Below are positions 1,315 to 37,500 of a stretch of DNA of 64,000 bases, one piece after another. Made by a program: the position numbers and the translations under genes. Numbering within the stretch: position 1 is the stretch's first letter; every line of letters starts with the position of its first letter. Below the pieces are notes generated by a model. It ran no database searches, was not told the origin of the DNA, and was given only the letters and a program-made list of their open reading frames with translations. The stretch is from Lachnospiraceae bacterium UBA3643 (GTDB lineage Bacteria > Bacillota > Clostridia > Lachnospirales > Lachnospiraceae), in contig DFKO01000022.1 of the NCBI GenBank assembly GCA_002373855.1, positions 6,509-70,508 of the forward strand. Direction: 5' to 3'.

Positions 1315-4300
1315 ATGAAAGTAAGAAAGACTATCAAGAGAGCTCTGTCTATGCTCCTCTGCGTAGCTATGATGATGACGACATTTGACCTGTCGGCATT
1401 AACTGTACGCGCAGATGAGGGTGATATGACAACCATCAGCGGAGACAACATCGTTTTAAACGGCGATGGTGTAAATGTATCCGGCGATGAGATTGGAGAG
1501 GGAGGAGACAACAATCCATCAGATATCATATCTGATAATGACGTGGATGATGCTTCGGAAGACATTGATGAAGAAAGCAGTATTTCTGAAAATAGCATTT
1601 CAGAGAACAGTATTTCTGAAAACACTATTTCTGATAACAGCATAAATCCTGTTGGAGATTCGTTGGCCACAATAGAAGTTGGTGGTTACAAGATTACAGC
1701 GGATGACGGATCTATGCCGGATAATGCATGTTACTTGAAATCACCTAATGGGGAATATGTGATTATCAATACTGAAGAGGCACTGACAATAGAACTGAAT
1801 GATGGTGTCACTTCAGCTGATAAACCGATAAAAGCGGAACATTATGGAATGACGCTTAATCTGACAATAAATAACCTTAAAATCGATGTTTCAGAGAGTT
1901 CTTGTTATTGTGGAATTATTGATGCAAGTTATTCGTCATTAAATCTGACAATTGAAGGAATAAATGAAATTACAGGGTTTGAGTCAAAAAACCATACTCG
2001 TCCAGCAATTTGCGCGGGAAATTATTCATTTTCGCCATCTGCAGCATACCCTGATGGTGATTTGGTAATAGGTGGAGATGGAACACTTATATTGAATCAT
2101 TTTGATTGTGCATTTAAGCATTCTGATATAACAATTTCTAGTGGATGTTTCAAATTTATAGATTGTGATAAGGTATCGTTTACTACAGCACCTGATTATA
2201 AAGTTGAGGTAACAGGCGGTTCATTTAGTACGGGTGATATCAGATATCAGACTGTTGGCCCTAAGATGGATTCTGATACCTATTATGAAAAAGGTTTTCC
2301 TGTATCGGCCGGTTATCAACTTATAGAGACAGATGATGAAGATTTTCCTTACAAAATAGTAGAGGCTACATATCAGCAGCGATTTATGGATTACATAATA
2401 TCTGCTGATGACAAAACTATATTGGAAAGAGGTAAAGATTACTACATTTACAATTCTAATTCCTCGAAAGAAATTGTAGCAATTAACACTGAAAAGCCTA
2501 TAACCATCGAGATGGCTGATGGTGTTGATGTTACGACCGTTCTAATCAAAGCAGCCAAGAATGGAATGGAACTTAACATAACAATAAAAGATATTTGCAT
2601 AGATTATTCAAATGTGAAAGTACGTTCTGACTATGCATTAATTGATGCAGCAGGATCAACACTTAATCTTACGATTGAAGGTGATAATACACTTATTGGT
2701 GATACTAATTATGCTCCATCGGCCTTTTCTGCAGGAAAAATTTATAGCACTTTACCTGATGGAGACTTAAATATTGACGGTTCCGGTACTGTTTTGTTAG
2801 ATAGTTTTGATATAGCTTTTAGAAGTATAGATTTGACAATTACCGGGGCCAAATTCAGGATTATAAATACTAATTTTACATTTGGATTATATGGTTCAAG
2901 TGTGTATGAAATAAATATAACAGGTGGGTATTTTTCAGATGCTGATATAGAAAAAAATACAGTCGGCAAGGGAAATGCATCGGAATCTAGTAAAACTGTA
3001 GGCGTAGCTGTTGCCAATGGCTATATGGTTGTTGAGAGTGGTGATGATGTTTTCCCTTACAAGGTTATCGCTACCCCTGCAATAATCACTTCATTTGATT
3101 TAAGTGAGAGTGCTAAAACTGTATATTTAAAAGCAGGTGATGAATATGATGTAGACTGGGAAGACGGAGTAGGTGGAAGATCAAGTGCTTTTCTCCTTAC
3201 AGTTGATAATATAACGGATGAAAATGGTGAAGAAGTTTCATTTGAAGATGCAAATGTCAGGTTTACATCTTTAAATCCTACTATAGCTGAAGTCACAAAA
3301 GACGGTGTTGTTCATGGACTTTCTGTAGGTACGGCCAAGATTGAAATAAAAGCCGGATACGGAAATGAGACATACACACAAGTTTGTACCGTAACCGTCA
3401 AGAAGGGCTCTATTGATGTGCTCCAGGAAAAGTGGGCTCCTGTAGACGCTGAAGGTATTCCCGTTGATTTCGACCATTTTGATGAAAACGGACAGCCTGT
3501 AGATGCTGAAGGGAAGCCTGTGGCTTGCGAGAAGTGGGGACCAACCGGAGAGATGATGGTAGTCAATTCATTCGGTAACCTTGTTGAAACAAACGAGTGG
3601 ATTACAAACGACTGGCAGCTTCAGTATAGCGATTGGAAGGACAGACCGAATCCTCAGCCCGATGAAGAATTTTGGCCTTCAAACTATACTGTAAAGGTTT
3701 ATACAGCCCAGACAATTACTGACTCAACGCTTAAAGCATTGAATTATACATTTAATCGTGATGGCGTATTGGAAAATGCAAACCATTCAATCACATTTGA
3801 TCTTTCCGGAAAGACATGGACAGCAAGCGTTCCGTTTGTTCTTGAAGATCAGATGCTCTTTACAAACGGAATCATCAATGCAAACAAAGATCTGAATATT
3901 GGCTATACAAAAACAGTAGATACAGAAAATGTTACCGTATCAATTGGCGAAGGATTAACTGTAAATGCATCAAATCTGTATGTTGAAGAAAATACAAGCA
4001 TAATTGTTAACGGTACGCTGACAGTCAAGGGAGAAACTCAACTCTATGACAACGTTAACATTATAGATAATGGTAGTGTTACTCTAAATAATGTTAACGT
4101 TGATACTAATAACTGGAATAATCCCGGCTTTATAGGCATTGCCAGATACACAGAAGCAGCACTTTCAATTAATGGTAATGTAGAAAGTGGTGGAGTATTT
4201 TTAAATGTTGGATTGATTTCAGCACCTGTCGATTATCGCGATGATGATTTTACAAACGATATTATCGACAATGTAGAAAATGAGGGCGTACTTCAAGCGA

Positions 4301-7300
4301 TAAATGAGAAAACAGAGCTTTTCAAATCAACTCTTGCAACTTTTGACTGTGAATATGTTAGGGTATGGCAGCCATGGAGCAATCAGGGCGCAAGTTTCCC
4401 TATCACATATTATGACAAGACTGAAAAGGCTGTTTATGCAGGTGAAGAGGCATATTATGTTGAGAATATTACATCTCAATATCATTATGGTGTGTCATTT
4501 GCACAATGGTCAGATGTTGCAGAATATGTAGCTTCTATTAATGATGCTGACAGTGAATATGTTGTAAACATAAATGTAGGAGAAGTTGAAGCATTTGCAA
4601 ACTTCAAATTCCCCAAGGCTGCAAGGTCAATTACATTTAGAAGCAATTACATATTGAAAGATGACGATGGAAACCCCATATCCGAAGTAGATGAAGAGGG
4701 TAATCCTGTATATGTAATCGGCGGTACTCTTGTTAAGTACACCGGTGATCTGACCCTTACTACAGATACAGTATTTGAAAATATTGACTTTGTGAGAGTT
4801 GATTCAAATAAAGATGAGACTCCTTATACCCTTACAAAGGTAGAAATAGCAGGACATGTCCTTTCAACCAGAGGCGAGGTTACATTCAATACACCGGTTA
4901 ATTTCACTGATAATAAGAAGAGCGGTACTCTTCGGGTAGAAGAAGGCAAGCTCTTTACGGGATATGTTGCGATAGGCGGCGCAGGTGATAATGGTGGTGA
5001 CTACCATGACGGAGTTGTTCAGAAATATCTCGAAAACTATGCTGTAAAAGCATATTTTGACGAAGAATACAAGTATAACAAAGATGACGGCGTAGCAATT
5101 ATTGCAGGTCAGATTAACGGAGTAGGAAATCTTGAAGTCAGAGATGCTCAGCTCTTTGTAGTAACTGACTACATGACATTTGCAAGCGGTAAATATACAT
5201 TTAATGCACCTGTATTTACACCAACTAATATTGATGAAGGTGCAGGTACAATTATCGTATCCAATATCAACGCAGATTATTTTACAGGCCAAAATACTGA
5301 TGCAGTATTTGTGGAGGGCATGAAGACAGCTGCAGAAAACCTTAAAACTAAGGCAAAGGCAACTGTTACAAATGTAAATATTTACAATTACGGTAGATTT
5401 ATAGCTGATGAAATGCAGCTTACAAATGTAATACTTAACGGTGCTACCGTACAGTCCAAGGGACTCTTTAATATCACAGGTATCCTCAGCAGTACAAACG
5501 GAGGAAACCTCCTGGCTACTGCAACGGATCCCAATAAGAATCTCCCTTACTTAAATGTCAGCGGTGATGTTATAACTTACGAAATGTGTGAGATCAACAT
5601 TGCCAATGTTGCATCATTTAATATTTTCAATACTGATCTTGAATACGAATATCCTGCGTATTCAGGTGTTGCAGGTGAAGGCGAGGCACAGTCAGTACTT
5701 CTTATTACAAAGACCGGTACTGCGGAACAGTTCCGTCCTCAGTACTGGAGACCTATTGATTGGGATAATTCTGATATTATGGCAGAACCGCCAATTTATG
5801 CTTTTATAACTGATGGAGAAACAGGTAAATTGTTAAAACCTCAGACCAACATTCCCCTGAGTATGTATGGTCATTTGGATGATGCAAATAATCTTGTATA
5901 TGACTATGAGGGTAATTCATGGCAGGATCTTGCATTCGGTCCTGAGAAGACTGATGGATTCTATACAAAGAAATCCGGTGATAATATATACCTACTCTCA
6001 GGAGCAGATATATCAGTGGCTCTTGCTTATGACGAGGATCAGCATGCATATTATGATGGGAATAATAATTACGTTAACGAGCTTGAGGCAAATGCGGGTA
6101 ATATCATCGGATATTATTCGACATGGGCTGATGCGGTTGTGGCAATCAATAATCTGAAGAACTCGGATGCATGCTATGAAATCATTCTTATCAATGATGC
6201 AGGCTCGGCAGAAAAACCGATAACACTCAGCTTCCCGACAGCAGCCTGTCTGTCAATGCTCCGGGTTACAGGTATAGATAATGCCAAAATATATTACACG
6301 AACGGTCTGACCCTTACATCCAATACGATATTTGAAGATGTCATACTTGCTCCAGTTAAGTTAAATGACGGAGTATATCAGGGTACAGCACTTGCAATCA
6401 ATTCAGGTGCGTATAATCTCGATATGAACGATGTGTTTTTCCCTACTGTAAACGGTGGGGCGTGTACGCTTGCCTCAATTACAGGTAATGGCAGAAATAC
6501 AGTAAATATAGAAAGTGTAGAGGGAGGAGTCAATAGTAATAATAATCTGGTGCTCACAGGCGGTATCACAAATATTGGTACATTAAATATTAATCGTGGT
6601 AAAGTTGTGATTCAGAAAGGTGACGTCAAAGTTGTTAATCTTAATATAATGGAATATGGAAGCACGCTGACTATCATATCAGGTAACATAAATGCAACCA
6701 GCATTTTCAGTAAGGAAACAACTGATATTATCCTGGAAAAAGGAAAGATTGACGCAACTAACGCTGACATTAACAGAATGACAGTTAATGGAGACGTTAC
6801 TATAAAAGAATCCATAACTATAAGGGATGGAGCTAATACCGGCAAATTTACTGCTTCAGATTTAACATTGGGTGATACTATGGTTAAGTTGAAGGCAAAT
6901 GGAAATGTAGATATTAAGGGAACGCTCACAATGAATAGTGCCTCAAGGATATATGCTGAGGGACAAACATATGCAGTCACTATAAAAGACATTAAACTGC
7001 TTGGAACGGGAATGATTTATACCTGGCGTAAGAAGGATGGTTCAACCAACCTGAAGATTACAGGTCAAATAAATATGGACGGAAATTATAAACTAGAGTT
7101 ATATCAAAACGCAGCCGATGAAGACGGCGATATGGTTGTTGCAAACCCGGTTGATAAATTGTCCGTTCAGAACGGCAAAGTAACTCCTGGTGCCAAAAAT
7201 CTGATTGCCAATATAGGAACGATTCCTTCTGAATACTTTGATTTTGGATATTATCATTATGATGAAGGTCAAACTGTACCTGATGGAGTTATCATCGGTT

Positions 7301-10300
7301 CCAATGTTCTTTTAAAGTACAACGGTGGTCTCTACTACGCAGACAGTAGTGTTGCACCGTTTAACAGCAACTTTGTATATCTTGATAAAGAGACAGTCGA
7401 TGAAAATGGAGGCGTTGCTTACTACGATCATTCAAGATACCTTGACTGGAATGAAGCTGTTAAGGAAATTAATTCCATTAACGATCCTACAGCAAAGTAT
7501 CGTATTAACATTGGAGCAGGTGTAACAGATACAAACCTTACTGATGCAAATGAATATGGAACCCTTACACTTCCCGCAGCTAAGAAGTGTGCATGGTTGA
7601 CTGTAAAGGGTAATCAAACGTTAGATCCGAATCCGGAACTTTGGTTTACTAACACAAGCCTAACGCTCACAACTAATGTGACAGTAGAATCTCTTAAATT
7701 AGGTATGAGAGCGGCAGTTTCGTTATCCCTTGGTTCATATACATTTATCCAGGATAAATCATGGTTCCCTAGCGGTCTTAAAGGAGTTACAGGAAGCTCG
7801 GCAAAGGGAACATCAAAATATGTGATTAAAGGACCTTTTTATGATAGTTATACATCAGTTATGGGCAATATCAATAATGTAGGAACTCTTGATATTATTG
7901 GTACTGATGTAAGAGTATTTGGAAACATAAATGTTGGTAATGTTGTTAAGCGCGGTGATGCATATGTTAGTCTGCAGGCAACTGGAACTGTAAACATAGG
8001 AAATATCGAATCATATGGTAATGCAGTTCTTGAATTAGATGGCTTTGCAAAGGTTGCAACAAAGAATGTTAAAGATGCAAAACCTGAGATAACAGGTATT
8101 ACATCTAACATCACTATTACAGGTATTATTACATGTGAGGATTCTGATTCTCCTGTACAGGTAAGCCTTTATAATGCAGCACTTGATGTTGGAACATTTG
8201 ATGATGCCAACTTGCTTTCGCCTGATAATATTGAAAATCAGAATAATTATTCAAATGGTGCAGATTTCCTTTATACCACAGGTATCACATTTGCAAAGGC
8301 TCTTAAGGCTGACACAAATATGATCAGATACGTGAACGGTACAGACGGCATGATTATCAAGAAGAATGGTAATCTTGTATGGGTTAACAGAGATCGTGTT
8401 CCTTATGAACTTCGTTACGGAACCAACTCTGTGCCTTGTCTCACATTTGCAGATGCCGTAACAGAGATTAAGAATCTTAATAATAAAAATGGTGAGTATA
8501 CAATTATCCTCATTGCTGATGGTCAGCATGATGTAAATGCGGATTATCCTGAGAACTTTACGATGCCTACGGCTGCTACTCTTAAGAGCCTGACAATAAA
8601 GCCTGAGGGTAATTCTCCAGTTAACCTTTACTATGGTACATACAATGCCACAAAGAAGACGACGACAGCAGTAGCAAAGCTTGCATTTGCAACAGATACT
8701 GTTATTGAAAACGTAAAATTCATCGATGCTGAAGCAGCTGCAAATCTTGTACAGGGAGACTATCCTAACAGAGCAGCCCTTAATGTATCACTCGGTGGAA
8801 AGTATGTAACATTTGATAACGTAACATTTGAAGGCAGAGGAGTTATCTTTGATGGTGGCAAGGGTACGATGGCAATCGGAGATGGTGGTCTTGTTGCAGG
8901 TACAGAGCCGGTAACTCTTAATAGTAATTATTCCGGATGCAGTGTTGTACAGGGTGAGATTAAAAACCTTGCTACACTTGTTACAGCAGAATGTGAAACA
9001 TTTGGAAGCGGCAGCGGAGAAACTCTTGTTATTACAAGATACATTGCTGCAGCAAACGGAACTATGAAGGATGGCGCTCTTGCGACAGTTACTAACCTTA
9101 ACCTCATAGGAGCAACTATCCAGGTAGATGGTTCGATAAATGTAACAAATATTATTACAGGAACAGAAACAGCACAGTCAATTGTGATGGCTGATACAGC
9201 ATTTACCGTATCGGGAACTGTTACTGCAGGAAGTGCAGACAACCTTGCGCTTATCGGTCGTCAGAAAAATGATGGTAAGACACCTCAGTTGACAATCAGT
9301 GGTACGGTTGCTCCTGGCAGCAATCCTGTAGCAATCGGTATCCTTCCTTACTATGACAGTAAGAGTGAGAAAACAGACAGTTCATATGAAACTTTGGCTG
9401 TACCTGAGACAGGTTTATCATTAGTGACTGCATCAAAGTGCACTGCTGACAGATTTGTGACAATTACAGAACTAGATGTACAGGACAATATTGTCGGACA
9501 ATTTGAAACAATGGGATTTGATCCTACACAGGCATCCGATCAAAGAGGTATAGGTCTTGTTAAGAGTGGCTCTGTCATAATGGCCTTTGACGGAAGTTAT
9601 ATCCATATCGTCCTTTCCAAGATGGCAGATGCAACAACAGGAAACGTACCTGTTACAGGTGAGGATGTTATCGGATATTACAACACATTCAAGGAAGTAA
9701 CTGATACAATAAATAACCTGAATAATAAGAATGCTCAGTATGGTATTTCACTGCTCGATGATTTTGGAAGTGAAAACGAGACAATCGCAATACCAAATAA
9801 CTCAAAGGCAGCAGGTATTTGTATTGAAGGATGCTTTTATTATGATCAAGAACTTTCGTTGAAGTCTCTTGCAATAACAAACAATCTTACATTATCCAAT
9901 GTTATAGTTACAGTTAACGGTGCAATTACATCAACGAAAGGCACGACGCTTACATTAGAAGGTATTGCCCATATCCAAGGTGCAAAAGCAATTACACTTG
10001 AAAATATAGATAATAAATGTAGTAATGAAAATGGTGGAATATGGTTTGAAAGAACCACATCAAATGTTAGTCAGCTTAAGATTAACGGTACTGTAACAAA
10101 CAGTGAAAATGGAAAGCTTTATCTGCTAATGCTTGATGAACGAGCAAATGTAGAAAATTATGTTGTATCTTCTGTAGAAGAGATTACTAAAGGTAATACG
10201 AAACAACTTTTTACAGCTCCAAAGGTAATGCAGGAAGATCTAGTAATCTATGTTGATGGTAGTGACTGTAAATTTGTTGATAACGAGCAAAGAACGCTTG

Positions 10301-13464: not shown

Positions 13465-13470
13465 TTACCT

Positions 13471-13497
13471 AAATGGACCCTTCGGGGTCCATTTTTG
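13471..13497 (+). terminator. Terminator of the first giant gene
   Basis: Perfect 10-bp stem AAATGGACCC / GGGTCCATTT closed by a UUCG tetraloop and running into a T-tract, starting 7 bases after the stop codon. Confidence 0.95.
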
Positions 13498-13504
13498 ATT
13501 TGAA

Positions 13505-13544
13505 ATATTAGATGGCAATAGTAACCATAAACATCATCTAATAT
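13505..13544 (+). promoter_or_regulatory. 10-bp inverted repeat upstream of the second giant gene
   Basis: ATATTAGATG (13505-13514) and CATCTAATAT (13535-13544) are perfect inverted repeats separated by 20 bases. They lie between the terminator of the first giant gene and the second giant gene. No T-tract follows, so an operator or RNA stem is more likely than a terminator. No clear -35/-10 pair was found in 13545-13700. Confidence 0.5.
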
Positions 13545-13601
13545 ATAGCAAAAATACCGTAGAAAATTTAAGGGATTGTGGGGTAAAATATCTATTAGGG
13601 T

Positions 13602-22596: not shown

Positions 22597-22635
22597 GGGG
22601 CTGTCGCATTAAAGCTACAGCCCCTCGTTGTTTTT
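22597..22635. terminator. Shared terminator between convergent genes
   Basis: The stem GGGGCTGT (22597-22604) / ACAGCCCC (22617-22624) is followed by a T-rich tract on the plus strand. It lies between the second giant gene and the convergent LuxR gene. The right arm is inside the last codons of the LuxR gene, whose stop codon is in the loop region. On the minus strand the T-tract is weaker (TTTAAG). The phrase AAAGGxGCTGTCGCA recurs at 29667-29681. Confidence 0.8.
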
Positions 22636-24009
22636 ATGCTCATTAAACATTTTCGATAATTCGGTCCTGTTGGGTACGCCGGTTTTCTTTAAGATATTCT
22701 TCATATGAAATTTGACGGTATTTTCAGAGATAAACAGGGCTTCGGCAATCTTGCTGTTTGAACCGCCCTTGATCACTTCCTGCAAAACCTCTATTTCTCT
22801 TGAGGAAAGATTGTTCGCATTTGCAAAGGCCCTTAACTTCTCCTCTTCATTAACGGTATCGGGGGAAGTATTATTTTTGATCATTATACCGGGCAGATAG
22901 ACATTCCACCAAAGTAATACCGCGCATATTACAGAAGTTAAGAAAAATACGGATATCAGGATAATAAGGATAACGGGATAATCAAGCAGGGGCGTACCGA
23001 GCAGAGTTCCGCCGGATTCACCTATTCGTCTGCAAAGTGTTCCGAATCCGGCGAGAAAAACCGCATCCTGCGCATAATCCGAAAATAATGTAATGCTGTA
23101 AACGGTTATAAATCCGGTTATAGCATAATTAAGTGCCCAAACCACAATATTCCCGATTGAAAAATTGTTAAACAGAAGGGATATGAACGGGCATATGAGT
23201 GTGGCGACACATAGCAGCAGACCGCCCTGCCTTGATCTGTCACATACTATGCCTGCTATTATGAGCCCTACTACAGAAAAAGCCCTGCTGTACTCTATAT
23301 TGACAGACCCGCTTGTAAAATCGGAGATAGGAAACATAAATCCAAGACTGCGGGTTGTTTCTATAAATGTTATCGTAAGCATAGACAAAACTATGATTTT
23401 GGCAGGGATTTTAGAAGGTTTTTCCTTTACCGAATTGATCTTATCCCCGGCATCATTAAGCGGGAAATGAATTATAAGCAATGAGATGACAGCAAGTAAT
23501 CCATACAGGACAAGAGAAAAGTCGCTCTTTAGGAATTCTCCATCCATTGGAATGGATACCAGCCAGGATGACAGGGTTCCGATTGACCATCCGATTCCGA
23601 TAGTTATGGCCTTAAATCTTTCGAGGGCTGTCAGGTACATCAGTGAACATGCGAAAATAACACCGCAGAAGAAATCCATGGATATTCCGAATATAACAGA
23701 CAGTTGAACGGTCGAAACTGTTATGGCGATTATCATAGAAATAAGCTCACAGACAATTGATATCGTAAATGATACTTTTAAATTAAACAGGTTTCTTTTA
23801 CAACATATTTTAGTGAAAATTGAAAATGCAACGATACCGAGTGCCTGTACAAAATAATCTATGATATTAGCAAAAAGATCCACAGTCTCTTCGGGCAATC
23901 TGTCCAATAATCTGTATATCCAGCATAAATATCCTGTACCTACCCATGAGTAAACTATACCTATGAGAAGGGTAGTTAAAATTGTGTTTCTTATCATTTC
24001 TTTTTTCAT
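22615..24009 (-). CDS. Membrane-embedded LuxR-family transcriptional regulator
   Basis: A 464-residue protein combining a polytopic membrane region (about residues 8-385, roughly twelve hydrophobic helices, transporter-like) with a C-terminal LuxR-type helix-turn-helix (about 395-455). The HTH shows LSSREIEVLQ, then SNSKIAEALFISENTVKFHM and LKKTGVPNRTEL. Proteins of this layout are known as ligand-responsive activators of neighbouring genes in Actinobacteria such as Eggerthella and in some Firmicutes; the ligand here is unknown. It is the only minus-strand gene in the window. It is divergent from the 1806-residue surface protein, and the intergenic region carries a dyad-plus-TATAAT element that also precedes the first giant gene. 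I infer that it activates the surface genes. The start at 24009 has only a weak ribosome site (AGGT). No acceptor-type response-regulator domain is present. Confidence 0.85.
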   Translation of the reverse strand: MKKEMIRNTILTTLLIGIVYSWVGTGYLCWIYRLLDRLPEETVDLFANIIDYFVQALGIVAFSIFTKICCKRNLFNLKVSFTISIVCELISMIIAITVSTVQLSVIFGISMDFFCGVIFACSLMYLTALERFKAITIGIGWSIGTLSSWLVSIPMDGEFLKSDFSLVLYGLLAVISLLIIHFPLNDAGDKINSVKEKPSKIPAKIIVLSMLTITFIETTRSLGFMFPISDFTSGSVNIEYSRAFSVVGLIIAGIVCDRSRQGGLLLCVATLICPFISLLFNNFSIGNIVVWALNYAITGFITVYSITLFSDYAQDAVFLAGFGTLCRRIGESGGTLLGTPLLDYPVILIILISVFFLTSVICAVLLWWNVYLPGIMIKNNTSPDTVNEEEKLRAFANANNLSSREIEVLQEVIKGGSNSKIAEALFISENTVKFHMKNILKKTGVPNRTELSKMFNEHKNNEGL

Positions 24010-24230: not shown

Positions 24231-27200
24231 ATGAAATTAACCGGATTCAGAAAAAGAAAAAAGAGAAAAAACCTGTATAGGAGCATATCTTTTCTTCTGG
24301 TGTTGATAATGGTATTTACCTATATGCCGTTAACATCCTTTGCCGGAGATCAACCGGAACAGGTCGAAGATTCCATATCCGAAAATATCACAAATGAGGA
24401 TACAAATGATACGGATTCGGTCTCCGGGGATGATACAGGTGAAGATGTACCGGACGCCCCGGATGATACGACCGGTGAAGATGATATATCAGATAATATA
24501 TCAGATAATATATCAGATAATATCGTAGGAGAAGATACTGAAAATGACGATTCTGTTAGTGGTAATACAATCAGTGACAACACGGCAGAAGAAATATTTG
24601 AAACACCGGATACAGTAGAACCCGTAGTAGACAGCATCTTCACATATACGGAGGATGAAAACGGAGACAGAATATACAGCGGCGGAGACTGTGATTTTGT
24701 CGTGACGGTTGATATGCCGGAGGATCTGACGGAATTTGAGGGGGATGTCAGCTTCTATACAATGAGCGAGGGTCAGGGAGTATTGTATATATATACGACA
24801 AGCCCTGTCACGGTATCAATGAAGGATGGTGTGACAGTAACAGACCAGAGCATCAGGGTAGGATACTCATCCCATGGTATCCATGACGGAGCACATATCA
24901 CACTTGACAATGTGCATATTGATATGTCAGAGCAAAATGCATTTATCAATGCAAGTGATTTCAGTTATCAGGATATTACAGATTATATCAATCGTTTTGC
25001 TGCCTTTTCGTATGTAGGTTATGATAGTTATACTTCGAGCATAACGGTTACACTTGTTGGCGATAATACACTCATTGGACCCAAAGTAGCTGACTCAAGT
25101 AGTTACCAGGCAGCATACGGAATATATGCGCAAGGCGGATATGGTATAGGTATAAAGGGACACGGCAATCTGACTTCTTATGTAGAAAAAGAGGATACAG
25201 ATGTGTATGACAACTATAGTATATATGTAAAATACGGAGCACTTAGGATAGAATGTGACGGTTATTTTGACCTTGGCCCTGTAGAAAACGGAAATGTGTA
25301 TTCTGAAGATTCAGCCATAATAACCGGAGGTACATATGCTCTTGGTAATGCATCATATGATGCAGTATATGGTGTAAATGCCAGCAGAGAGACATGGGGT
25401 GACGGCATACAGAGGCTTTATAGAGTCGGATATACAAATAACAAAAATAAATATGATAAATATGATGTGTCGGTATATATGCCGGACGATGCAAAGGCGT
25501 ATCTTTCGAATTATATAGGCAGAGAAACATTATATGCCATGAATGAAGATTACGGTCAGGCGTATGATGCCGTATACGCTGCTGCAGTAAGTTTTACCGG
25601 TGGTAGTGAGTTTGATGCAGATTATCATATGAATTATGGATTCTCAATGGCAGAGACCGGTATGATTCATAATGCTGTAGTAAATGATCATCCTGAATTT
25701 ATCTGGTGGTGGTCATCTTCATGGGGAGGCGGTTCAAGAGGTCTGGTTGTAAACCTGAGTACAGAATCTGCGGTTCAGGGATACGAACTTATAAGAAGAC
25801 AGAAGGCATTTGAGGAGAGCACGGTAAGACTATTAAGAGAAGCCGGAATCACAGATACGATGACTGATTATCAAAAGGCCTATGCGCTCTATCAGGTTTT
25901 GGTGGCAAATGTTGTTTATAATCTTGATGCAGGAGACCAGGGAGCGTATGAGGCTATGGTAAATGGAGAAGGCGTATGTGCCGGTTATGCCAAAGCATAT
26001 GTATATCTCCTTCAGAGAGCAGGAATAAAGGCTTCATATGTACCCGGTCAGGCAGCTTTACCGGGCCAGTGGTCACAGGGGCATGCATGGGTAATAGCGA
26101 AAATAGATGGAGCATATTACCACAGTGACCCTACATGGGATGATAATGGTTCTACGTCAAATTTTAAGTATTTTAATGTGCCTTGGAGTGCTCTTTCGTC
26201 AGACCACTGGATAGATGATGATTTGGGATATGAATTCCCTAATGCAATAACAGCCAAGCCGACTCTTCCGTCAAATGTAGTAAAGATAACTGCAACGGCG
26301 GGTGCAAATGGTACATCGTATCCTTCAAGCCTTAGGATTCCATCAGGTTCAAGTGCAAAAGCTACATTTGTAGCTGAGGAAGGATTTGTTATTGATACGG
26401 TTAGGGTTAACGGTGTGCCGGCTACTCCTGTCAGCGAGGGCGGTGGAGTTTATACGCTTGAATTAAGCAATATCACAACTGCGACAACAGTAAGTGCCAC
26501 ATTTACCGAAGCAGATCCAACTGATGTCATACCAAAGCAGGTTGGTGATTTCATAGTTTATTTCAACGATGGAACGGAGATAAACGCGGAAGGTACAAGT
26601 GATTGTTTCGCAAGCGGAAATAATTTTTATATTTTAACTGATAAACCCATAACAATTGAAATGGGCAAAGATGAAAACGGTGATACCATAGCTTCAAGCA
26701 GTATGAAAATTACACCATCCGTAGCTGAGTCCTATATCACACTAAAGAATGTAACTATTGTATTTGATGTGGAGAATTACGATTCAATAATTGATGCAAA
26801 AGGAAAAACTGTTCATCTGACTCTTATTGGAGATAATTATCTGATAGATTCCGATCCGAACTTTACCGGTACAAGCGGAATATCAACTGGAAGACCTGAT
26901 TCGAACTATACGTATTTGAAGGAAGGTGAATTAACAATAACCGGTACGGGAACACTTACCATGCAGGGACTGCAAAGTGGCCTTGAATTTAGCGATCTGA
27001 CAATGACGGGAGGATCTCTCAAATTTGTAAATTGTACCCAGCCATACGGATACTGGGGCGCAGGAAAGGTAGAGATTAAAGGCGGAAAATTTGCTGATGT
27101 TGTGGATGCGTCAAAAGGCATAGTCTTCAAATATATGGATTACACCAATGGGACAGGACAGCAGAACGTATATGTAGCTTCCGGATATAAGATTGTCACA

Positions 27201-29651: not shown

Positions 29652-29699
29652 CACAAGCAATTATGTAAAGGAGCTGTCGCAGGTCCAAAATTAAAACGA

Positions 29700-29738
29700 A
29701 AACCATATCCTGTTATGCAAGACGGGGTATGGTTTTTT
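29700..29738 (+). terminator. Terminator of the transglutaminase-like gene
   Basis: AAACCATATCC pairs with GGGGTATGGTTT (G-T pairing at the base near the loop) and runs into TTTTTT. It lies about 50 bases after the stop codon. Confidence 0.85.
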
Positions 29739-29776
29739 ATTGCATACATTTACTTTAGGAAGAATCATGATACTTA

Positions 29777-29805
29777 TTGAATATATAACGTGAACGCGTT
29801 ATAAT
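29777..29805 (+). promoter_or_regulatory. Promoter and probable autoregulatory operator of the HipB/HipA-like pair
   Basis: TTGAAT (29777-29782), a 17-base spacer and TATAAT (29800-29805) form a good SigA promoter. An inverted repeat TATAACG (29784-29790) / CGTTATA (29797-29803) overlaps the spacer and -10, where a bound HipB-type repressor would block RNA polymerase. Confidence 0.7.
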
Positions 29806-29825
29806 TTAATTACGAGGTTGGAGTA

Positions 29826-30275
29826 ATGAATGAGTATTTTAAATCAAAAGTGAGAGAGTGTGGGAAAAGTCTGTATAGAATAAGTCATGAAACCGGCATA
29901 CCGTATACTGTTTTAAATGAGATATATAACGATAAGAAAAATATTAACAATATCACATCCGAAACAGTGTACAAGTTATGCCTTTACTTTGATTGCGATA
30001 TGAAATCGCTCCTTAATCCTTTTCCTCTTCTGAAAAACAGCAGAGGGATTTACAGAAAAGTATCTTATCAGTGGGTTGCCACGAATAATGGTGAAGAGAT
30101 GGAATTACAGATATTGGCAGATAATGAGCCGGAGACAATAATTACTTTGAAGCAAGCTATACCTGATGCATACAAAGAGTACAATAGTCTGGTTGCTGAA
30201 GTAGCTATTGATGATTATTTAAAGAGGAAGAAGGACGAAGAGGTATTAAATGGGGCAATATTTTTTGATGCATAA
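29826..30275 (+). CDS. HTH-type antitoxin-like protein (HipB-like)
   Basis: A 149-residue protein with an Xre/Cro-type helix-turn-helix in residues about 8-62 (SLYRISHETGIPYTVLNEIY, then ITSETVYKLCLYF). The C-terminal half is not recognised and may contact the kinase partner. GGAG upstream supports the start. The gene overlaps the following HipA-like gene by 26 bases, the usual antitoxin-first arrangement. A palindrome overlapping its own -10 box suggests autorepression. No recombinase or repeat borders show that the pair moved recently. Confidence 0.75.
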   Translation: MNEYFKSKVRECGKSLYRISHETGIPYTVLNEIYNDKKNINNITSETVYKLCLYFDCDMKSLLNPFPLLKNSRGIYRKVSYQWVATNNGEEMELQILADNEPETIITLKQAIPDAYKEYNSLVAEVAIDDYLKRKKDEEVLNGAIFFDA

Positions 30276-31416
30276 AAATGATATATGCGGTGCAATGGTT
30301 ATTGATGATGATAGCAGTTATATCCGATCATATAAGGATTCTGGGAAAGGAAAATCTCCTTTTCTGGGAAATTGTGACGAGAGAAAAATAATAAAATGGT
30401 GGGAGGGTCGAGCTGTACCGGCTTCGAGAAAAATGGTACAGGATATCCTGAAGCACAACGGTTATATCAATACGGAAAAGTATCTCGTGAAAAATCTGGC
30501 ACTTTCGATGACGGACGCTTATTGGATAAGGCCTATCAGTATGAAACTGGTATATGAGGACATATCCTTTTCCAATCTCTCACCATACAATGACGGTAAA
30601 GTTCCATATCATAACGAGACATCATATGATCCAAATGCTTCTCTTGGAGGTCAGATGGATAAATATTGGGATTTGAGTACGGAAAAGCCGTCACTGGTAA
30701 AAGAAAGTTATAAATATTTTGGTCAGCAGGCAATAAATGAAGTCTTTGCCACAATGATTCATCAGAGACAACAGACAAAGATACCATTCGTATCATATAC
30801 AGCTGAAAAGACGGACGACAATGGAGTTATTTGTCGTTGTGAAGCATTTACGAGTGAAGATTTGGAATTTGTCCCGGCATATGAAGTAATAGAGAGTTCA
30901 AAAAATGAGAGTGAAAGCTCACCATACGATAATTATATTAGGATTTGTGCAAATGCCGGAATTAAAAAAGTTGTAATGCAGGAATTCATGGATTATCAGA
31001 CTATGACGGATTTTATTATAAGTAATACTGATGAACATCTCCTAAACTTTGGAATTCTGCGTAACCCGGATACATTTGAGTATATTGGACCGGCCCCTAT
31101 TTTTGATTCTGGTAACAGTATGTTTTTCTCTGAAAAAGCAGAGGTATTATCACGTGTGTCATTATTGAAAAGGCAGATTACCGGATTCTATCAGACAGAA
31201 GAAAAAATGTTAAAAAATGTAAAAAACAAGGATATTGTAGATTTATCTTTGTTACCGTCTGAAAAAGAGTGCAAAGAATTATATAAAGCCTATGGTATAC
31301 CTAAAGAAAAAGCCGAGGCGATAGCAAAAAATTATATAACTAAAGTTAAAATGGCTCATGATTTTCAAAAAGGAATGAAAATCTCACTGTATCATGAGAA
31401 AAACAAAAAATCGTAG
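30250..31416 (+). CDS. HipA-like serine/threonine kinase toxin candidate
   Basis: A 388-residue protein whose middle part has HipA-type kinase motifs: NTDEHLLNFG with catalytic Asp261 and Asn266, and IFDSGNSM with metal-binding Asp286. A lysine in EKPSLVKESY (about residue 145-153) could be the ATP lysine. HipA kinases phosphorylate aminoacyl-tRNA synthetases and induce dormancy; the target here is unknown. It is shorter than E. coli HipA (about 440 residues), and I do not see the N-terminal HipA subdomain clearly, so it may belong to a HipA-like subfamily with a separate partner. It is translationally coupled to the HTH gene through a 26-base overlap. A hairpin follows. Confidence 0.75.
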   Translation: MGQYFLMHKNDICGAMVIDDDSSYIRSYKDSGKGKSPFLGNCDERKIIKWWEGRAVPASRKMVQDILKHNGYINTEKYLVKNLALSMTDAYWIRPISMKLVYEDISFSNLSPYNDGKVPYHNETSYDPNASLGGQMDKYWDLSTEKPSLVKESYKYFGQQAINEVFATMIHQRQQTKIPFVSYTAEKTDDNGVICRCEAFTSEDLEFVPAYEVIESSKNESESSPYDNYIRICANAGIKKVVMQEFMDYQTMTDFIISNTDEHLLNFGILRNPDTFEYIGPAPIFDSGNSMFFSEKAEVLSRVSLLKRQITGFYQTEEKMLKNVKNKDIVDLSLLPSEKECKELYKAYGIPKEKAEAIAKNYITKVKMAHDFQKGMKISLYHEKNKKS

Positions 31417-31467
31417 CAAAATGAATAAGAAGCCGGGCCATACCACTTTTTTGGTGCGGGTGTTTTC

Positions 31468-31502
31468 AGGGTTGACACAGAGATGTGTTAACCCTTTATT
31501 TA
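31468..31502 (+). terminator. Terminator-like hairpin after the HipA-like gene
   Basis: AGGGTTGACAC (31468-31478) and GTGTTAACCCT (31485-31495) form an 11-bp stem with one G-T pair and a 6-base loop, followed by TTATTTAT. The T-tract is imperfect. The long dyad could also serve as an operator for the next gene, because TTGACA at 31472-31477 lies within it. Confidence 0.6.
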
Positions 31503-31602
31503 TATGTCGGAAAATAGTAAAATATAGGTAGCACGCTTTATTGATTTAAGCGATGACAGCATAGTGATTTTTAATGTATTTTCGTCGAATGGAGGCGGAT
31601 TT

Positions 31603-34600
31603 ATGAACAGAACTAAAAGTAGAAAAGCGGGAAAAAGAATTTTTTCGATAATGCTGGCAGTTCTCCTGCTCTTTAATTATATTCCGGAGACAGTTTATGC
31701 CGGAACGGTTAATGATGGAGAGGACGTAAGCGTATCCGGAAATGTAGCGAATTATGACAGCGTATCCAGTGATGACGCAGACGAAACAGTGTCGGATAAT
31801 ACCTACGACGAATCGGGAGATGCTGCAGGCGATGAATCAGATAATATCCCGGATGAACCATCGTCAGTTTCAGATAATGATTCGGAGTATTCTGAAAACA
31901 ATGACGCAGAAGATACTGTATCTGACAATAGTGTGTCGGATAATGATGTGGATGATTACAGTCAGGTCCCTGATTTTCCGACCGGAGGTAATAATGAGAT
32001 AGAGGATACCATAGATATTGAGAATGTAAATGTCAAACCGACAAATTATGTTCCAAATCTTAGGGGAAGCGTCCTTCCTGTTTCATATACTACACCGAAT
32101 CTTCCAGATCTTCGTAATCAGTATCCGTATGGAACCTGTTGGGCTCATTCTGCAATGGCACTCGCTGAAATTAGTTTAATAAAGCAGGAATTTGTGGATC
32201 CAAGTGTCGACTTATCTGAGTTACATTTAGCTTACTTTTCTTATAATACGGTAATTGATCCATTGGGTGGACTTGATGGTGATTCGAACGCATGTTTAAA
32301 CGATACCTTTATGGATAGAGGAGGAAATATCTCTCTTGCTGAAAATGTGTTGTTTTCATGGACTGGAGCTGCAAGTGAAGAAACAGCCCCTTATTCAAAT
32401 GCGTCATCAGCACTTGTGAATGGATTAAGCACCGGGATTGCATATACCGATTTAGCACATATGACGGCCTGCTATGAAACTACTATTTCAACATCTCAGG
32501 CTGATATAAATGCAGTAAAGCAAATGGTGTATGATTATGGTGCTGTAGGAATCAGTTATTATGCTGTAAATTCAATGTCTGCTGTTACATCCCAAAATAT
32601 CTACAGTACAGCAAATAATTGCTATTACAACTCAGGAGCATCCGGACTTACAGCAAATCACGCTGTTACGATTGTTGGATGGGATGACAGTTTTGCAAAA
32701 GAAAATTTTGCTACTCAGCCGGCAGGAGATGGTGCATGGCTTATCAGAAATAGCTGGACAACAGGAACTGTCTATAGTTATTCAGGATATTTTTGGATGT
32801 CATATTATGAACCTTCTATTGATGATGATGCTGTATCTTATGTGTTTGAACTAGAAAATAACTATGACAATAATTATCAATACGATGGAGGTATGCAGTC
32901 AAATTCTGTTCCGGGAACAAAGTTTGCAAATGTCTTCACAGCACATGCAGAAGGTGGAGATTTAGGAGAAACTATAGAAGCAATTGCTTTTTATACACCG
33001 ACATCAAATGTTACTTATACTGTAAATATATATGGCGATGTAACGGGGACTAATCCGGAGAGTGGTACTTTGATTGCTACACAGACCGGAACTACTACTT
33101 ACGCAGGATATTATACAGTTAAATTAAAAAAACCATGCACAGTTGAAAAAAACACTAAATTTTCTGTCGTAATCTCTCTGTCTAAAGAAGGTTATACAGC
33201 TGAAATGGGATATGAACAGCCTGTTTCAACAAGCGACTGGTATCAGGTAACGACTCATGCGGATGCCGGAGAGAGTTATATATATAATGGTTCGTGGAGA
33301 GATTTTACAAATTATTATTCTAATCTTACAAATTCTAATCTTAGAATAAAGGCTTTTACCAATAATGTTCAATCAGGTGAAATTGTTGCTCCTGAAAGCA
33401 TTGAAATAGACGATGAAATATTATCTAACGGAATCACTCTTGGTGTAACACAAAGTTATACAGTTAGTGCAAAAGTTAATCCAAGTAATACAACAAACAG
33501 GAAACTGATATGGACAAGTTCTGATACAAGTATAGCGACTGTGGCTAATGGAGTTGTCACCGGAGTTAGTTCAGGAACGGCAGTTATTACAGTAAAATGC
33601 GATGCTGATAATACGATATATAAAACATTTTCTGTAACGGTAGATGCTGACACACTGATTTCGATTTCTGTCAGCGCAGACTCGCAAAAATTCAAGAGAT
33701 ACAGTGAATATACATTTTCGGCTTCGGCAAATCCTTCAACAGCGTCGCTTGAAGGTTTGACGTGGTCGTCATCCAATACAAACGTAGCAACAATAGATTC
33801 TACAGGAAAAGTGAAGACGGTAGGTGTTGGTAAAACAACAATTACTGCAACATGTGGTAATATTACCGGCTCCAAGGAGATAACGGTATATCCTGATGCC
33901 CCCAACTTTACTTATTATACGGACGATGATAATACAATCAAGCTTTATTGGGAAGCCGTAGATGGAGCGACAGGTTATGAGATTAATTATAACCAAAAGG
34001 AAATTAGTATAGTTTCTGAAGAGGGAAAAACAAATTACGAATATGAGATTAACGATTATTCAGGGATTGAATATAGCGAAAATAATTGCGTTGCGATAAC
34101 TGTTTATGCGTTGGTTCCCAGTGTTGACAGCACAGGAACGTATGGTTATGGATTAACCCAATATGTATATTATGGACCAACATATACAATTATTTATGAT
34201 GTCGGAAACGGAACGAATAATGCAAATAATCCCAGCACATACAAATATGGACGCCCGGGTATATCATTTCAAAATCCTATAGCTCCTAAAGGATATACTT
34301 TTAAAAGATGGTATTACATAAAAAATAATACAACATATACAATTACAGGGATTAGTTCTACATATTATTTTGATAGTTCCACAAAGAGTTTAAAAGTGTA
34401 TGCGGAGTATAAGCCGATTACTTATACAATAGCTTTTAACAATAATGGCGGCACGGGTACGATTAATTCCGTTTCATGTACTTATGATACTGCAAAGACT
34501 CTTCCAGCATGTACATTCACAAAGAACGGATATACATTTACAGGCTGGAATACCAAGGCTGACGGAACAGGCACATCGTATGCTCCCGGAGCCAGCGTAA

Positions 34601-37500
34601 GTAATCTTACATCGACCCAGGGGGCGACGGTAACACTTTATGCTCAGTGGTCAAAAGGTTCATACACGATTGTTTTCAATGCCAATAATGGAACAGGAAC
34701 CATGAACAATCAGGTATGTGCATTTGACGAAGAAATAACACTGTCGGCAAATACATATACGAGAACAGGATATACGTTTGCCGGATGGAATACACAATCA
34801 AATGGCAATGGAACATCATATGCTGACAAGGCAAGTGTAAAGAACCTTGCTGCAAGTGGATCAATAACGTTATATGCACAGTGGACACCGATTACGTATA
34901 CAATTGCATTTGACGGAAATGGTGGAACAGGTACGATGAGTTCCGTTTCATGTACTTACGATAGTGCTAAAACTCTTCCGACATGTACATTTACAAAGAC
35001 AGGATATTCATTTTATGGTTGGAATACAAAAGCAGATGGAACAGGTATATCATATGCAGATAAGGCAAGTATAACTAATCTGACATCAACCCAGGGAGCA
35101 ACGGTTACGCTTTATGCAAAATGGAAGGCCAATACATACACGGTAGCATTTAACAGTAATGGTGGAACCGGCACGATGTCATCAATGACAGGTTGTACCT
35201 ATGACAATGCTTATTATTTAACTGATAATAAATTTAAGCTTACAGGTTATATGTTTGCAGGCTGGAATACGAAAGCCGATGGAACGGGTACATCATACGC
35301 AGACTGTGCAACTGTGGCAAATCTGGCAACAAGCGGAACGGTTACATTGTATGCCCAATGGACACCGATTACATATACAATTGCATTTGACGGAAATGGT
35401 GGAACAGGTACATCAGCATCGATGACACAGTGTTCATATGATAATTCGATTGTTCTGACGGCTAACGGATTTACGAAGGAAGGATACACCTTTACAGGAT
35501 GGAATACATCTTCTGACGGAAAAGGTGTGGCCTATGCTGACGGGGCATCAGTAAAGAATATGTCATCTGTACAGGGTGCGACGATCACCTTGTATGCACA
35601 GTGGAAGGCAAACAAATATACAGTTGTCTTTGATGCAAATAGCGGAACAGGAACAATGAATTCCCTTGAATGTACTTATGGTACATCATCAATTCTTCCT
35701 CAGTGTTTGTTTACGAAACAAGGATATACTTTTGCCGGATGGAATACGGAGCCGGATGGTACAGGTATTAACTACGGAGATAAGGCTGATGTGCTGAATC
35801 TTGCCACAGAAGGTAATATCACACTTTATGCTATGTGGGAAGGCATGCCGGTGACAGTTACGCTCTGTGCTAATGGCGGACAGTTTGATGACGGAAATAC
35901 TGATAAACAGATAACAGTTTATTATAACGGAAAATATACATCTCTTGTAACTCCCGAGAGAGCCGGATTCACTTTCGGTGGATGGTATGTTTCATTGGCA
36001 GGTGGAAATGAGATTACAACGAATACTCCTGTGACAAGCTGCGCAAGTCATAAACTGTACGCAAAGTGGATTGCGAATGATGGCTGGCATGTAAGTGGAA
36101 GAAGCAGTTATTATACAAGCGGTGGTAATCGTGTATATGGTCAGTACGATTTTAGTGAATCTGAAAGCTATTACTTCAACCCTTCAACCGGTCTCCTTAT
36201 GACCGGTCTGATCAAGACTGCTGAAGGAACATATTACGGTGACTCATCCCAGGGCGGAAAACTCATTAAGGGTGAGAAGGTAATCGGATCAAATACGTAT
36301 TTGTTTGCTGATGGTTACAGAATGGTGACAGGCTGGTATGATAATTGTTACTACGATGAGATAACCGGCGCCAGACAGACAGGATTTATTGAGATCGAAG
36401 GCAATACTTATTACCTGAACCCCGAAAAGGTAACCGGCTGGCAGGATATAGATGGTGACAGATACTATTTTGACACAAACGGTATCATGGTCACAGGTCA
36501 TCAGGCTGATATAAATGGTAAAGAGTATTACTTCACTGAAGACGGTCAGCTCATGACAGGCTGGATAGATACTGATGCCGGTGAGATATATGCTGTAGAA
36601 ACGGATGATGTCCTGACGGGAGAAACTATCGGCGAGATTGTTAAAGACAGAGATCGTCTGATAGATGGAACGATGTATAAATTCAATGCTGACGGTTCTG
36701 TTTATGCACCGGAAGAACCCGGAGTAACGGAAATAGGCGGTAAATATTATTTCTTTAATGCTGACGGAGTAGCAGTAAAGGGTTGGTATACATTTGATGA
36801 TGGAAAGACATATTACTTTGGAAGCGACGGAGCAGCTCTTTTAGGTAATCAGGTAATAAATCTGAAAGCATATCAGTTTGATGCTGATGGCGTCCTCACA
36901 AATGAATACAAGCCGGGATCATCGACATTCTTTAACGATGAAGATGGCGATAAATATTACATAAACAAATATGGCAAGGCCGTAACCGGCTGGATATATT
37001 CAGGCAACAGCAAGTATTATATGAACACTGAGACAGGTGCTGCTGTGAAGTATGCCTACAAGGTAGGACTCAAGGTTTACTACTTTGACGCAGAGTGCAG
37101 GCTGGTATCATCCGGTAATACTGTGCAGATCGGAAACACTACATATTCAATAAAGAATGACAGCAGCCTGAAGACCGGATGGGTCAGAACAGGTGGTATA
37201 TGGCAGAGTATCCCTGAACCTGTAATGGGTATACCGGGAACAGTGACACAGCTTCCGCAGAGCACAGGATATATACCTGAACCAATGACATCAACCCAGG
37301 CACTTGCAGCTTGTCAGTCGGTATTCAACACAGAGAACTTTGAATCGGTATATGACGTCACATCAGATACAGCCGGTACAGACAGTGTGACAGATATTAT
37401 TATGACAGTAGACTTTGAGCAGTTGCCTGTTTCTACAATGTTGGCGACACATGCAGATTACCATTGTTTATCGTCAAAAAACATGATGGCAAATTATTAA
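31603..37500 (+). CDS. Wall-bound papain-like (C1) cysteine protease with Big_2, InlB-type and choline-binding-type repeats
   Basis: Secreted protease of about 1965 residues. GGAGGCGG at 31591-31598 sets the start at ATG 31603; an in-frame GTG at 31564 has no ribosome site. A signal peptide (about 1-34) and an acidic linker with VSDN/SGN units (about 35-140) are followed by a C1 peptidase domain (about 150-400). That domain has Gln173 (oxyanion), Cys179 in GTCWAHS, His353 in ANHAVTIVGW and Asn383 in RNSW. Next are a lectin-like beta domain (about 420-580), two Big_2 domains (about 596-763), a fibronectin-like stretch, and eight InlB/Listeria-Bacteroides repeats (about 860-1490). Wall-binding repeats fill about 1493-1866, and a 100-residue tail ends the protein. 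It shares the C-terminal block GLKVYYFD...LKTGWVR with the transglutaminase-like protein. It may process the giant proteins or host targets; this is inference. The pflA gene starts 16 bases downstream. Confidence 0.85.
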   Translation: MNRTKSRKAGKRIFSIMLAVLLLFNYIPETVYAGTVNDGEDVSVSGNVANYDSVSSDDADETVSDNTYDESGDAAGDESDNIPDEPSSVSDNDSEYSENNDAEDTVSDNSVSDNDVDDYSQVPDFPTGGNNEIEDTIDIENVNVKPTNYVPNLRGSVLPVSYTTPNLPDLRNQYPYGTCWAHSAMALAEISLIKQEFVDPSVDLSELHLAYFSYNTVIDPLGGLDGDSNACLNDTFMDRGGNISLAENVLFSWTGAASEETAPYSNASSALVNGLSTGIAYTDLAHMTACYETTISTSQADINAVKQMVYDYGAVGISYYAVNSMSAVTSQNIYSTANNCYYNSGASGLTANHAVTIVGWDDSFAKENFATQPAGDGAWLIRNSWTTGTVYSYSGYFWMSYYEPSIDDDAVSYVFELENNYDNNYQYDGGMQSNSVPGTKFANVFTAHAEGGDLGETIEAIAFYTPTSNVTYTVNIYGDVTGTNPESGTLIATQTGTTTYAGYYTVKLKKPCTVEKNTKFSVVISLSKEGYTAEMGYEQPVSTSDWYQVTTHADAGESYIYNGSWRDFTNYYSNLTNSNLRIKAFTNNVQSGEIVAPESIEIDDEILSNGITLGVTQSYTVSAKVNPSNTTNRKLIWTSSDTSIATVANGVVTGVSSGTAVITVKCDADNTIYKTFSVTVDADTLISISVSADSQKFKRYSEYTFSASANPSTASLEGLTWSSSNTNVATIDSTGKVKTVGVGKTTITATCGNITGSKEITVYPDAPNFTYYTDDDNTIKLYWEAVDGATGYEINYNQKEISIVSEEGKTNYEYEINDYSGIEYSENNCVAITVYALVPSVDSTGTYGYGLTQYVYYGPTYTIIYDVGNGTNNANNPSTYKYGRPGISFQNPIAPKGYTFKRWYYIKNNTTYTITGISSTYYFDSSTKSLKVYAEYKPITYTIAFNNNGGTGTINSVSCTYDTAKTLPACTFTKNGYTFTGWNTKADGTGTSYAPGASVSNLTSTQGATVTLYAQWSKGSYTIVFNANNGTGTMNNQVCAFDEEITLSANTYTRTGYTFAGWNTQSNGNGTSYADKASVKNLAASGSITLYAQWTPITYTIAFDGNGGTGTMSSVSCTYDSAKTLPTCTFTKTGYSFYGWNTKADGTGISYADKASITNLTSTQGATVTLYAKWKANTYTVAFNSNGGTGTMSSMTGCTYDNAYYLTDNKFKLTGYMFAGWNTKADGTGTSYADCATVANLATSGTVTLYAQWTPITYTIAFDGNGGTGTSASMTQCSYDNSIVLTANGFTKEGYTFTGWNTSSDGKGVAYADGASVKNMSSVQGATITLYAQWKANKYTVVFDANSGTGTMNSLECTYGTSSILPQCLFTKQGYTFAGWNTEPDGTGINYGDKADVLNLATEGNITLYAMWEGMPVTVTLCANGGQFDDGNTDKQITVYYNGKYTSLVTPERAGFTFGGWYVSLAGGNEITTNTPVTSCASHKLYAKWIANDGWHVSGRSSYYTSGGNRVYGQYDFSESESYYFNPSTGLLMTGLIKTAEGTYYGDSSQGGKLIKGEKVIGSNTYLFADGYRMVTGWYDNCYYDEITGARQTGFIEIEGNTYYLNPEKVTGWQDIDGDRYYFDTNGIMVTGHQADINGKEYYFTEDGQLMTGWIDTDAGEIYAVETDDVLTGETIGEIVKDRDRLIDGTMYKFNADGSVYAPEEPGVTEIGGKYYFFNADGVAVKGWYTFDDGKTYYFGSDGAALLGNQVINLKAYQFDADGVLTNEYKPGSSTFFNDEDGDKYYINKYGKAVTGWIYSGNSKYYMNTETGAAVKYAYKVGLKVYYFDAECRLVSSGNTVQIGNTTYSIKNDSSLKTGWVRTGGIWQSIPEPVMGIPGTVTQLPQSTGYIPEPMTSTQALAACQSVFNTENFESVYDVTSDTAGTDSVTDIIMTVDFEQLPVSTMLATHADYHCLSSKNMMANY
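34180..36075 (+). repeat. Eight InlB/Listeria-Bacteroides repeats
   Basis: Units of about 75-80 residues begin with YTIxF(D/N)xNGGTGT, contain GYTFxGWNTKADGTG and end with VTLYAQW. Six are very similar, and the first and third of these are near copies (TYDTAKTLPACTFTK versus TYDSAKTLPTCTFTK). The first and last of the eight are diverged. The beta-grasp repeats form rod-like stalks and are prone to recombination. Confidence 0.9.
36079..37215 (+). repeat. Choline-binding-type wall repeats of the cysteine protease
   Basis: Repeated TGW...YYF units of about 20 residues run from GWHVSGRSSYY to the GLKVYYFD / GWVRTGGIW block. The probable role is non-covalent attachment to wall polymers. Confidence 0.85.

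Follow-up and report, generated by a model that had tools for sequence, protein, structure and literature searches.

In a 64,000-nucleotide stretch of the genome of Lachnospiraceae bacterium UBA3643 (contig DFKO01000022.1, positions 6,509 to 70,508; the window, hereafter) we find a locus encoding two giant proteins, F1 and F2, built of predicted beta-helix units, together with a large transglutaminase-like protein, TG, and a cysteine protease of the Cwp84 type, CP. We propose, giving it about an even chance of being right, that F1 and F2 are rods forming a surface fibre or matrix, that the adjoining TG acts on them, most likely by acyl transfer, and that CP is at most an optional partner. Under this proposal, F1 and F2 would be secreted as rods of successive right-handed beta-helix units; TG, bearing wall-binding-type repeats, would act on fibres of this type, its Cys-His-Asp chemistry most likely forming a covalent bond between a fibre and its neighbour, the wall or a foreign surface; and the protease, which belongs to a common family, would at most process fibre-unit proteins. 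A first-pass annotation had read the four genes as one coordinated system. Our data support its two-part core of fibre and transglutaminase, and the four-part system only partly, since the protease is less tied to the fibre and the locus probably spans more than one transcription unit.

The evidence that carries this proposal is the recurrent association of fibre and transglutaminase. Fibre units were found in 15 genomes (the window's own, G060-G067, G230, G329, G433, G013, G025 and G029), ten of them with giant fibres, and a transglutaminase domain is fused to the fibre or lies within a few genes of it in nine of the 15 and in eight of the ten. Fusions are seen in P0007 (a fibre with Transglut_core at E 3.6e-12), L048, L049 and L050 (the last two domain calls coming from the Pfam-family genome search) and G230, from an independent order sample, where a 1952-residue protein has both parts (Transglut_core at E 1.7e-13 by Pfam; the fibre part is weak). 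G060, G061 and G062 each hold a fibre lacking the domain (L011-L013) and a second giant fibre, of 4594 (start open), 5008 and 5051 residues, with Transglut_core near its N-terminus. The domain is near the fibre in the window, L014, L015, L017 and G025. Two transglutaminase proteins stand beside the giant fibre or one gene from it in L014, one in L015 and two in L017/L053, and in the window a single gene separates F2 from TG, which are near and not fused. In G025, a transglutaminase-like gene lies one gene from a leucine-rich-repeat (LRR) protein that ends in fibre units; it is recognized by a five-row model at E 7e-11 and has visible triad-like residues, with no Pfam Transglut_core match at E 0.001.

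This association exceeds what would be expected from the abundance of the domain: in the eight genomes found by the family alignment, 8 of 37 Transglut_core matches lie in or near fibres versus about one expected, a rough count that ignores the clustering of secreted genes. Also, the fibre-linked domains are scattered in a tree of 32 rows, 21 of which are unlinked domains retrieved incidentally; the near-copy P0010 is excluded, as are L001 and L005. At least four label changes are needed and a single clade is rejected (p-AU 4e-9 in the approximately unbiased test, a result that the long branch of P0007/G230 may inflate). Judging from this tree, the linked domains stem from several lineages, and such repeated pairing of fibres with enzymes of different descent speaks for a functional tie. 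Fibre and transglutaminase probably work together.

F1 is composed of a leader, an acidic (I/V)S(E/D/G)N linker, a beta-rich module in common with TG, Big_2 and an array of beta-helix units, and F2 is 38% identical to it across about 2000 residues. That both giants lack an anchor had been claimed before and is borne out by Pfam, which gives Ig-like domains only for F1, no match for F2 and no anchor domain in either. A model of one two-unit segment predicts a parallel beta-helix, and it is from this segment that the fold class of the fibre is taken. No match was returned by a PDB sequence search with F1 residues 120-640. As a single query against the genome contigs F2 found no relatives, and the family alignment as query led to eight loci. 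The nearest F2 relatives are 24-28% identical. A profile search of 35 genus genomes yielded short fibre-unit genes in G013, G025 and G029. The count of 4/392 may be low, at most two candidates having been scored per genome. No member of the family was found in viral contigs, so a phage origin is without support. Among the matches listed from open-licence PubMed Central (PMC) papers, there was no such fibre or fibre/transglutaminase pair, which is weak evidence of novelty. We regard F1 and F2 as members of a rare, apparently undescribed family of beta-helix-unit proteins. Three further loci bear on this family. L018, a sheep-rumen contig, encodes two long fibre open reading frames (ORFs; 3833 and 3554 residues) and, at the contig edge, two fibre-like ORFs (601 and 602 residues). 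L073 (8414-11497) encodes a BspA-type LRR protein of 1027 residues whose C-terminal third matches fibre units, suggesting that the unit serves also as a module on other surface proteins. In L011 (1227-4697), a protein with CAP-domain and YDG, possibly another partner, is the second ORF upstream of the giant fibre, with an MBG-type ORF between.

TG consists of the linker, a beta-rich module, Transglut_core (PF01841; E 3e-13, 50.4 bits versus a curated cut-off of 23), a second beta-rich module like that of F1, three Big_2 domains and choline-binding-type repeats. Its residues 801-1101 match F1 residues 393-699 (E 4e-24), a non-catalytic module common to the two proteins. The Cys-His-Asp triad is intact in TG and in 15 of 15 aligned rows overall (14 distinct proteins). 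The AlphaFold2 model of residues 136-720 (mean pLDDT 60.8) is poor in its N-terminal part, so only the catalytic part was used; in Foldseek its best match is 9crn, TglA of S. pyogenes (E 9e-10). TG may catalyse Gln-Lys transfer. DUF5722 is the C-terminal end both of the fused L048 and of the transglutaminase protein adjoining the L015 fibre (L015 18795-24707).

In CP, the linker is followed by a C1A domain, a lectin-like domain (Lectin_like, PF18560; E 3e-28, 99.3 bits versus a cut-off of 27), Big_2, seven List_Bact repeats and choline-binding-type repeats. Its catalytic and lectin-like domains match the Cwp84 structures 4ci7 and 4d59 (E 4e-24); Peptidase_C1 is absent from its Pfam matches at E 0.001. 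With Cys179, His353 and Asn383 present (counted from ATG 31603; 192, 366 and 396 from the GTG) and similarity over the protease domain, CP is a C1A enzyme of the Cwp84 type, for which the processing of a surface-layer precursor is only putative. The earlier descriptions of both active sites, TG Cys583-His618-Asp633 and that of CP, and of wall-binding repeats in the two enzymes, here the choline-binding-type repeats, therefore hold. The CWB2 wall-binding domain is the mark of the C. difficile Cwp family; it is not among the Pfam matches of CP, which has choline-binding-type repeats instead. We rejected a reading as large clostridial toxin: the matches of the repeats to toxin chains peak on common wall-binding-type repeats, and no toxin domain is among the Pfam matches.

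The protease follows the fibre much less than the transglutaminase does. A CP-type gene is near the fibre in 3 of the 15 fibre-unit genomes, the window's being the only giant-fibre genome among them; none was found at the fibre stretches of the other nine giant-fibre genomes, G230 included, or of G329 and G433, and two of the eight other giant-fibre genomes searched have one anywhere. Of 59 other relatives, 25 have a CP-type enzyme (G013, G025 and G029, with their short fibre-unit genes, among them), and the family is large: matches make up 1288 of the 7994 candidates scored in the protein collection. G013 and G025 each have a short gene with fibre units, whose products (578 and 588 residues, one SISEN motif each) are 68% identical, and a C1A/lectin-like protease (56% identical between the two genomes) is encoded two genes downstream of it. 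Both belong to a cluster on one strand, together with genes for a subtilase and a GH5-CBM2 enzyme (Pfam: G013 copy only). These clusters are one shared arrangement, not two independent ones. The G025 contig (25.6 kb) carries also the transglutaminase-like gene near its LRR/fibre-unit gene. The cluster shared by these two same-genus genomes (L071 71-12037 and L072 201-12236) encodes a GH5-CBM2-type protein, a subtilase, a short fibre-unit protein, an unknown secreted protein and a Cwp84-type protease, the fibre-unit gene standing between two protease genes (Pfam: L071 only). We consider CP an optional partner at most. Other arrangements of this protease were observed. In the same-genus G030, where no fibre was found, L055 (188-12518) reads transglutaminase-protease-transglutaminase with very similar leaders, and L056 (233-6425) transglutaminase-protease. 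The giant proteins of L054 (2089-12828), L052 (1470-13337) and L057 (1277-9043), of 3579, 3955 and 2588 residues, have an N-terminal Cwp84-type protease domain and no detected fibre units; the protease is thus also fused to long proteins.

The layout of the locus is given in Table 1. For F1, ATG 1315 is better spaced from AAAGG than 1306. The common N-terminal plan attributed to the four large proteins is confirmed: all have a signal-peptide-like N-terminus (judged by eye only) and, in residues 31-160, an acidic linker with 32-44 Asp and Glu versus 1-3 Lys and Arg. There, [IV]S[EDG]N occurs 5, 3, 6 and 5 times in F1, F2, TG and CP (1, 2, 0 and 0 times beyond), versus shuffled means of 0.06-0.13, the observed count being reached in 0 of 2000 shuffles for each protein. 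A search with the CP leader/linker recovered only these four genes in the window's own genome (67% complete), and weaker matches in 10 of 59 other genomes, among them six scattered genes in G020. The linker is therefore the leader module of a wider group and, alone, no proof of joint function.

Table 1. Features of the fibre locus, in window coordinates
Feature	Position	Strand	Basis or remark
F1, giant secreted fibre protein	1315..13464	+	ORF opens at 1306; 4052 residues counted from 1306
Terminator-like hairpin after F1, 10 pairs, T-rich tail	13471..13494	+	consensus scan
F2, second giant fibre, beta-helix units, 2959 residues	13707..22586	+	
LuxR-type regulator, about 10 transmembrane-like segments, divergent from TG	22615..24009	-	Pfam; hydropathy scan
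TG, secreted transglutaminase-like protein, 1806 residues	24231..29651	+	
TG catalytic domain, residues 526-690	25806..26300	+	Cys583 25977-25979, His618 26082-26084, Asp633 26127-26129
HTH_26 (Cro/C1-type) gene; inside the locus, no claim of fibre-system membership	29826..30275	+	Pfam
HipA_C-like gene overlapping the HTH_26 gene; no claim of fibre-system membership	30250..31416	+	below Pfam cut-off
Terminator-like hairpin between HipA_C-like gene and CP, 12 pairs	31468..31495	+	consensus scan
CP, secreted Cwp84-type cysteine protease	31603..37500	+	also open from GTG 31564; 1978 residues from GTG, 1965 from ATG
CP catalytic and lectin-like region (search query)	31939..33393	+	Cys 32137-32139, His 32659-32661, Asn 32749-32751

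The four giant genes are probably not a single operon, given the inverted LuxR gene and the terminator-like hairpins at 13471 and 31468, and F1 and F2 are probably on separate transcripts. The region holds 11 terminator-like sites versus 9.4 expected from shuffling, so this verdict depends on the position and stem length of the hairpins, that of F1 being among the two longest. The membrane regulator of the first-pass annotation is a real LuxR-type protein, but nothing supports calling it dedicated: blastp found no relative in L011-L018. The proposed check of that annotation, co-occurrence of the gene set, gives a mixed answer, with the fibre/transglutaminase pairing recurring and the protease mostly away from fibres. 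The annotation also lacked the two genes between TG and CP; the HipA_C-like gene of this pair (29826-31416) matches the PADLOC candidate PDC-M03A (E 2e-13). To the right (38300-47578) lie shikimate dehydrogenase and kinase genes, followed by mannan-use genes (two GH130 phosphorylases, GH26-CBM35, DUF624 and a solute-binding protein).

Several observations weigh against our proposal. Foldseek with the two-unit fibre model gave no match at E <= 0.001, and VIA-align only re-aligned the weaker matches. In six of the 15 fibre-unit genomes, the stretch seen around the fibre is without a transglutaminase gene: G065 and G067, where this stretch is near contig ends (the G065 transglutaminase protein, L051, sits on another contig), and G329, G433, G013 and G029, which have only short fibre-unit proteins of 488-1109 residues. 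Transglut_core-type genes are also common in genomes without a detected fibre, TG matches being present in 49 of 59 other relatives. Two TG relatives at 89% identity lie on contigs of 29,109 and 37,579 bases, and no contig of either length carries any of the five F2 relatives listed or of the 120 CP relatives listed out of 1288; the gene set may not travel together. The TG domain of the window itself groups with the LRR-type transglutaminase proteins P0011-P0013, apart from the fused enzymes, so its coupling to F1 and F2 is an extrapolation from other loci, helped by the module common to TG and F1. As to chemistry, the fold of TG also houses peptidases and endoisopeptidases, and no obvious conserved Lys or Gln site is found in the fibre units, where two of 33 Lys-majority and one of 12 Gln-majority columns are at least 75% conserved. 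In an alternative reading TG is a hydrolase (peptidase, amidase or endoisopeptidase) that forms no cross-links but acts on or with the fibre to trim, release or mature it, or else cleaves peptides of the wall. Its structural neighbours at or below E 0.001 include 3isr, a putative cysteine protease (E 1.7e-4), and, above that threshold, the TgpA periplasmic domain and the pseudomurein endoisopeptidases PeiP and PeiW; the transglutaminase-like dockerin proteins of R. flavefaciens FD-1 are counted among peptidases in an extract of PMC2930009, and the superfamily contains transferases and hydrolases alike, according to a portion of PMC10318531. However, the presence of the domain inside the fibre is no less compatible with attachment or cross-linking, and the sequence decides neither way. 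We hold hydrolysis to be unlikely, if a serious competitor; the case for transfer over it is thin, as the triads are intact but the superfamily has both kinds of enzyme and the target is not obvious.

Two further explanations we judge equally improbable, and somewhat more so than hydrolysis. The locus could be no more than a hot spot for rapidly changing, unrelated surface proteins, nearness and common leader and linker reflecting local duplication and no joint function. Close relatives do differ at this locus, so the view has room. The nearest relative, G014, keeps one flank protein per side at 97% and 98% identity, and shows no fibre (candidate scoring and profile search), no P0003 orthologue (best 35% identity) and no CP. 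The G014 contigs stop about 200 and 275 bases past the flank genes, and as G014 is 94% complete its locus genes may be unassembled; immediately ahead of the right flank gene, a stretch of 55 bases that resembles the LuxR gene's end (L059 7680-7733) is a possible scar of a lost locus. Identity to the nearest relatives is unequal (89% for TG, 54% for CP, 24-28% for F2), the linker and transcription evidence above fits a loose collection, and the genes have a guanine-cytosine content of 35-42% versus 45% on the right, though the left flank has 38.5%. Still, a hot spot leaves unexplained the Transglut_core-fibre fusions in several genomes and the repeated nearness in distant ones. There could also be a fuller system, in which TG does the joining and fibre-unit proteins are matured or trimmed by the protease, perhaps with control by the LuxR regulator. 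The shared G013/G025 arrangement with its SISEN linker, the G025 transglutaminase-like gene, the N- and C-terminal modules that TG and CP have in common and the G030 tandems speak for it, and the C. difficile literature, in the parts consulted of PMC4414356 and PMC4089489, makes a maturation role attractive for an enzyme with the catalytic and lectin-like domains of CP. The scarcity of CP-type genes at other fibres, the size of the CP family and the regulator's lack of relatives speak against it. We retain the proposal of a fibre acted upon by its transglutaminase, with the protease as an option.

A broader generalization, which we advance tentatively and consider possible rather than probable, is that Lachnospiraceae and their kin have a class of self-joining giant surface fibres: beta-helix rods of 2,000-5,000 residues, for which a transglutaminase-like domain, in cis or from a neighbouring secreted enzyme, would make covalent links between rods or from a rod to the wall or to the surface of a host or plant. 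The arrangement would have been recruited repeatedly, from different enzyme lineages, and a Cwp84-type protease would be optional for maturation. Were TG indeed to link fibres covalently, the surface matrices of gut Lachnospiraceae could be built or attached by a route independent of sortase, with a papain-fold transferase in or near the fibre, and the secreted transglutaminase-like proteins that are frequent in the group would gain a testable substrate. Even if no joining takes place, the fibre family accounts for very large ORFs with little or no Pfam match.

Each component has to be compared with a better-known system. CP is like Cwp84 of Clostridioides difficile in its catalytic and lectin-like domains, with Cys, His and Asn present, and differs in its choline-binding-type, Big_2 and List_Bact repeats and in showing no Cwp-type wall-binding domain among its Pfam matches. 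TG has the same catalytic fold as TglA (9crn), TgpA (6g49) and the transglutaminase 4xz7, 9crn being its best structural match and the one transglutaminase chain that the sequence match contains. The open-licence PMC literature gave no paper on TglA. Unlike TglA-type enzymes, TG embeds this domain in 1806 residues with beta-rich, Big_2 and wall-binding-type modules. The modelled fibre segment resembles the L. reuteri adhesin SRRP (5nxk) and pneumococcal PfbA in fold only, at just 10-14% identity, whereas F1 and F2 are many-unit arrays with no anchor domain found. According to the same extract of PMC2930009, the transglutaminase-like dockerin proteins of R. flavefaciens FD-1 are secreted and encoded head-to-tail, adjoining an LRR dockerin protein; they differ in having dockerins and belonging to a cellulosome, with no giant fibre in that part of the paper. 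The idea of covalent reinforcement is common to our proposal and to the surface proteins treated in the consulted part of PMC8382745, but there the bonds are intramolecular, whereas here a Cys-His-Asp enzyme domain is fused to the fibre or encoded near it.
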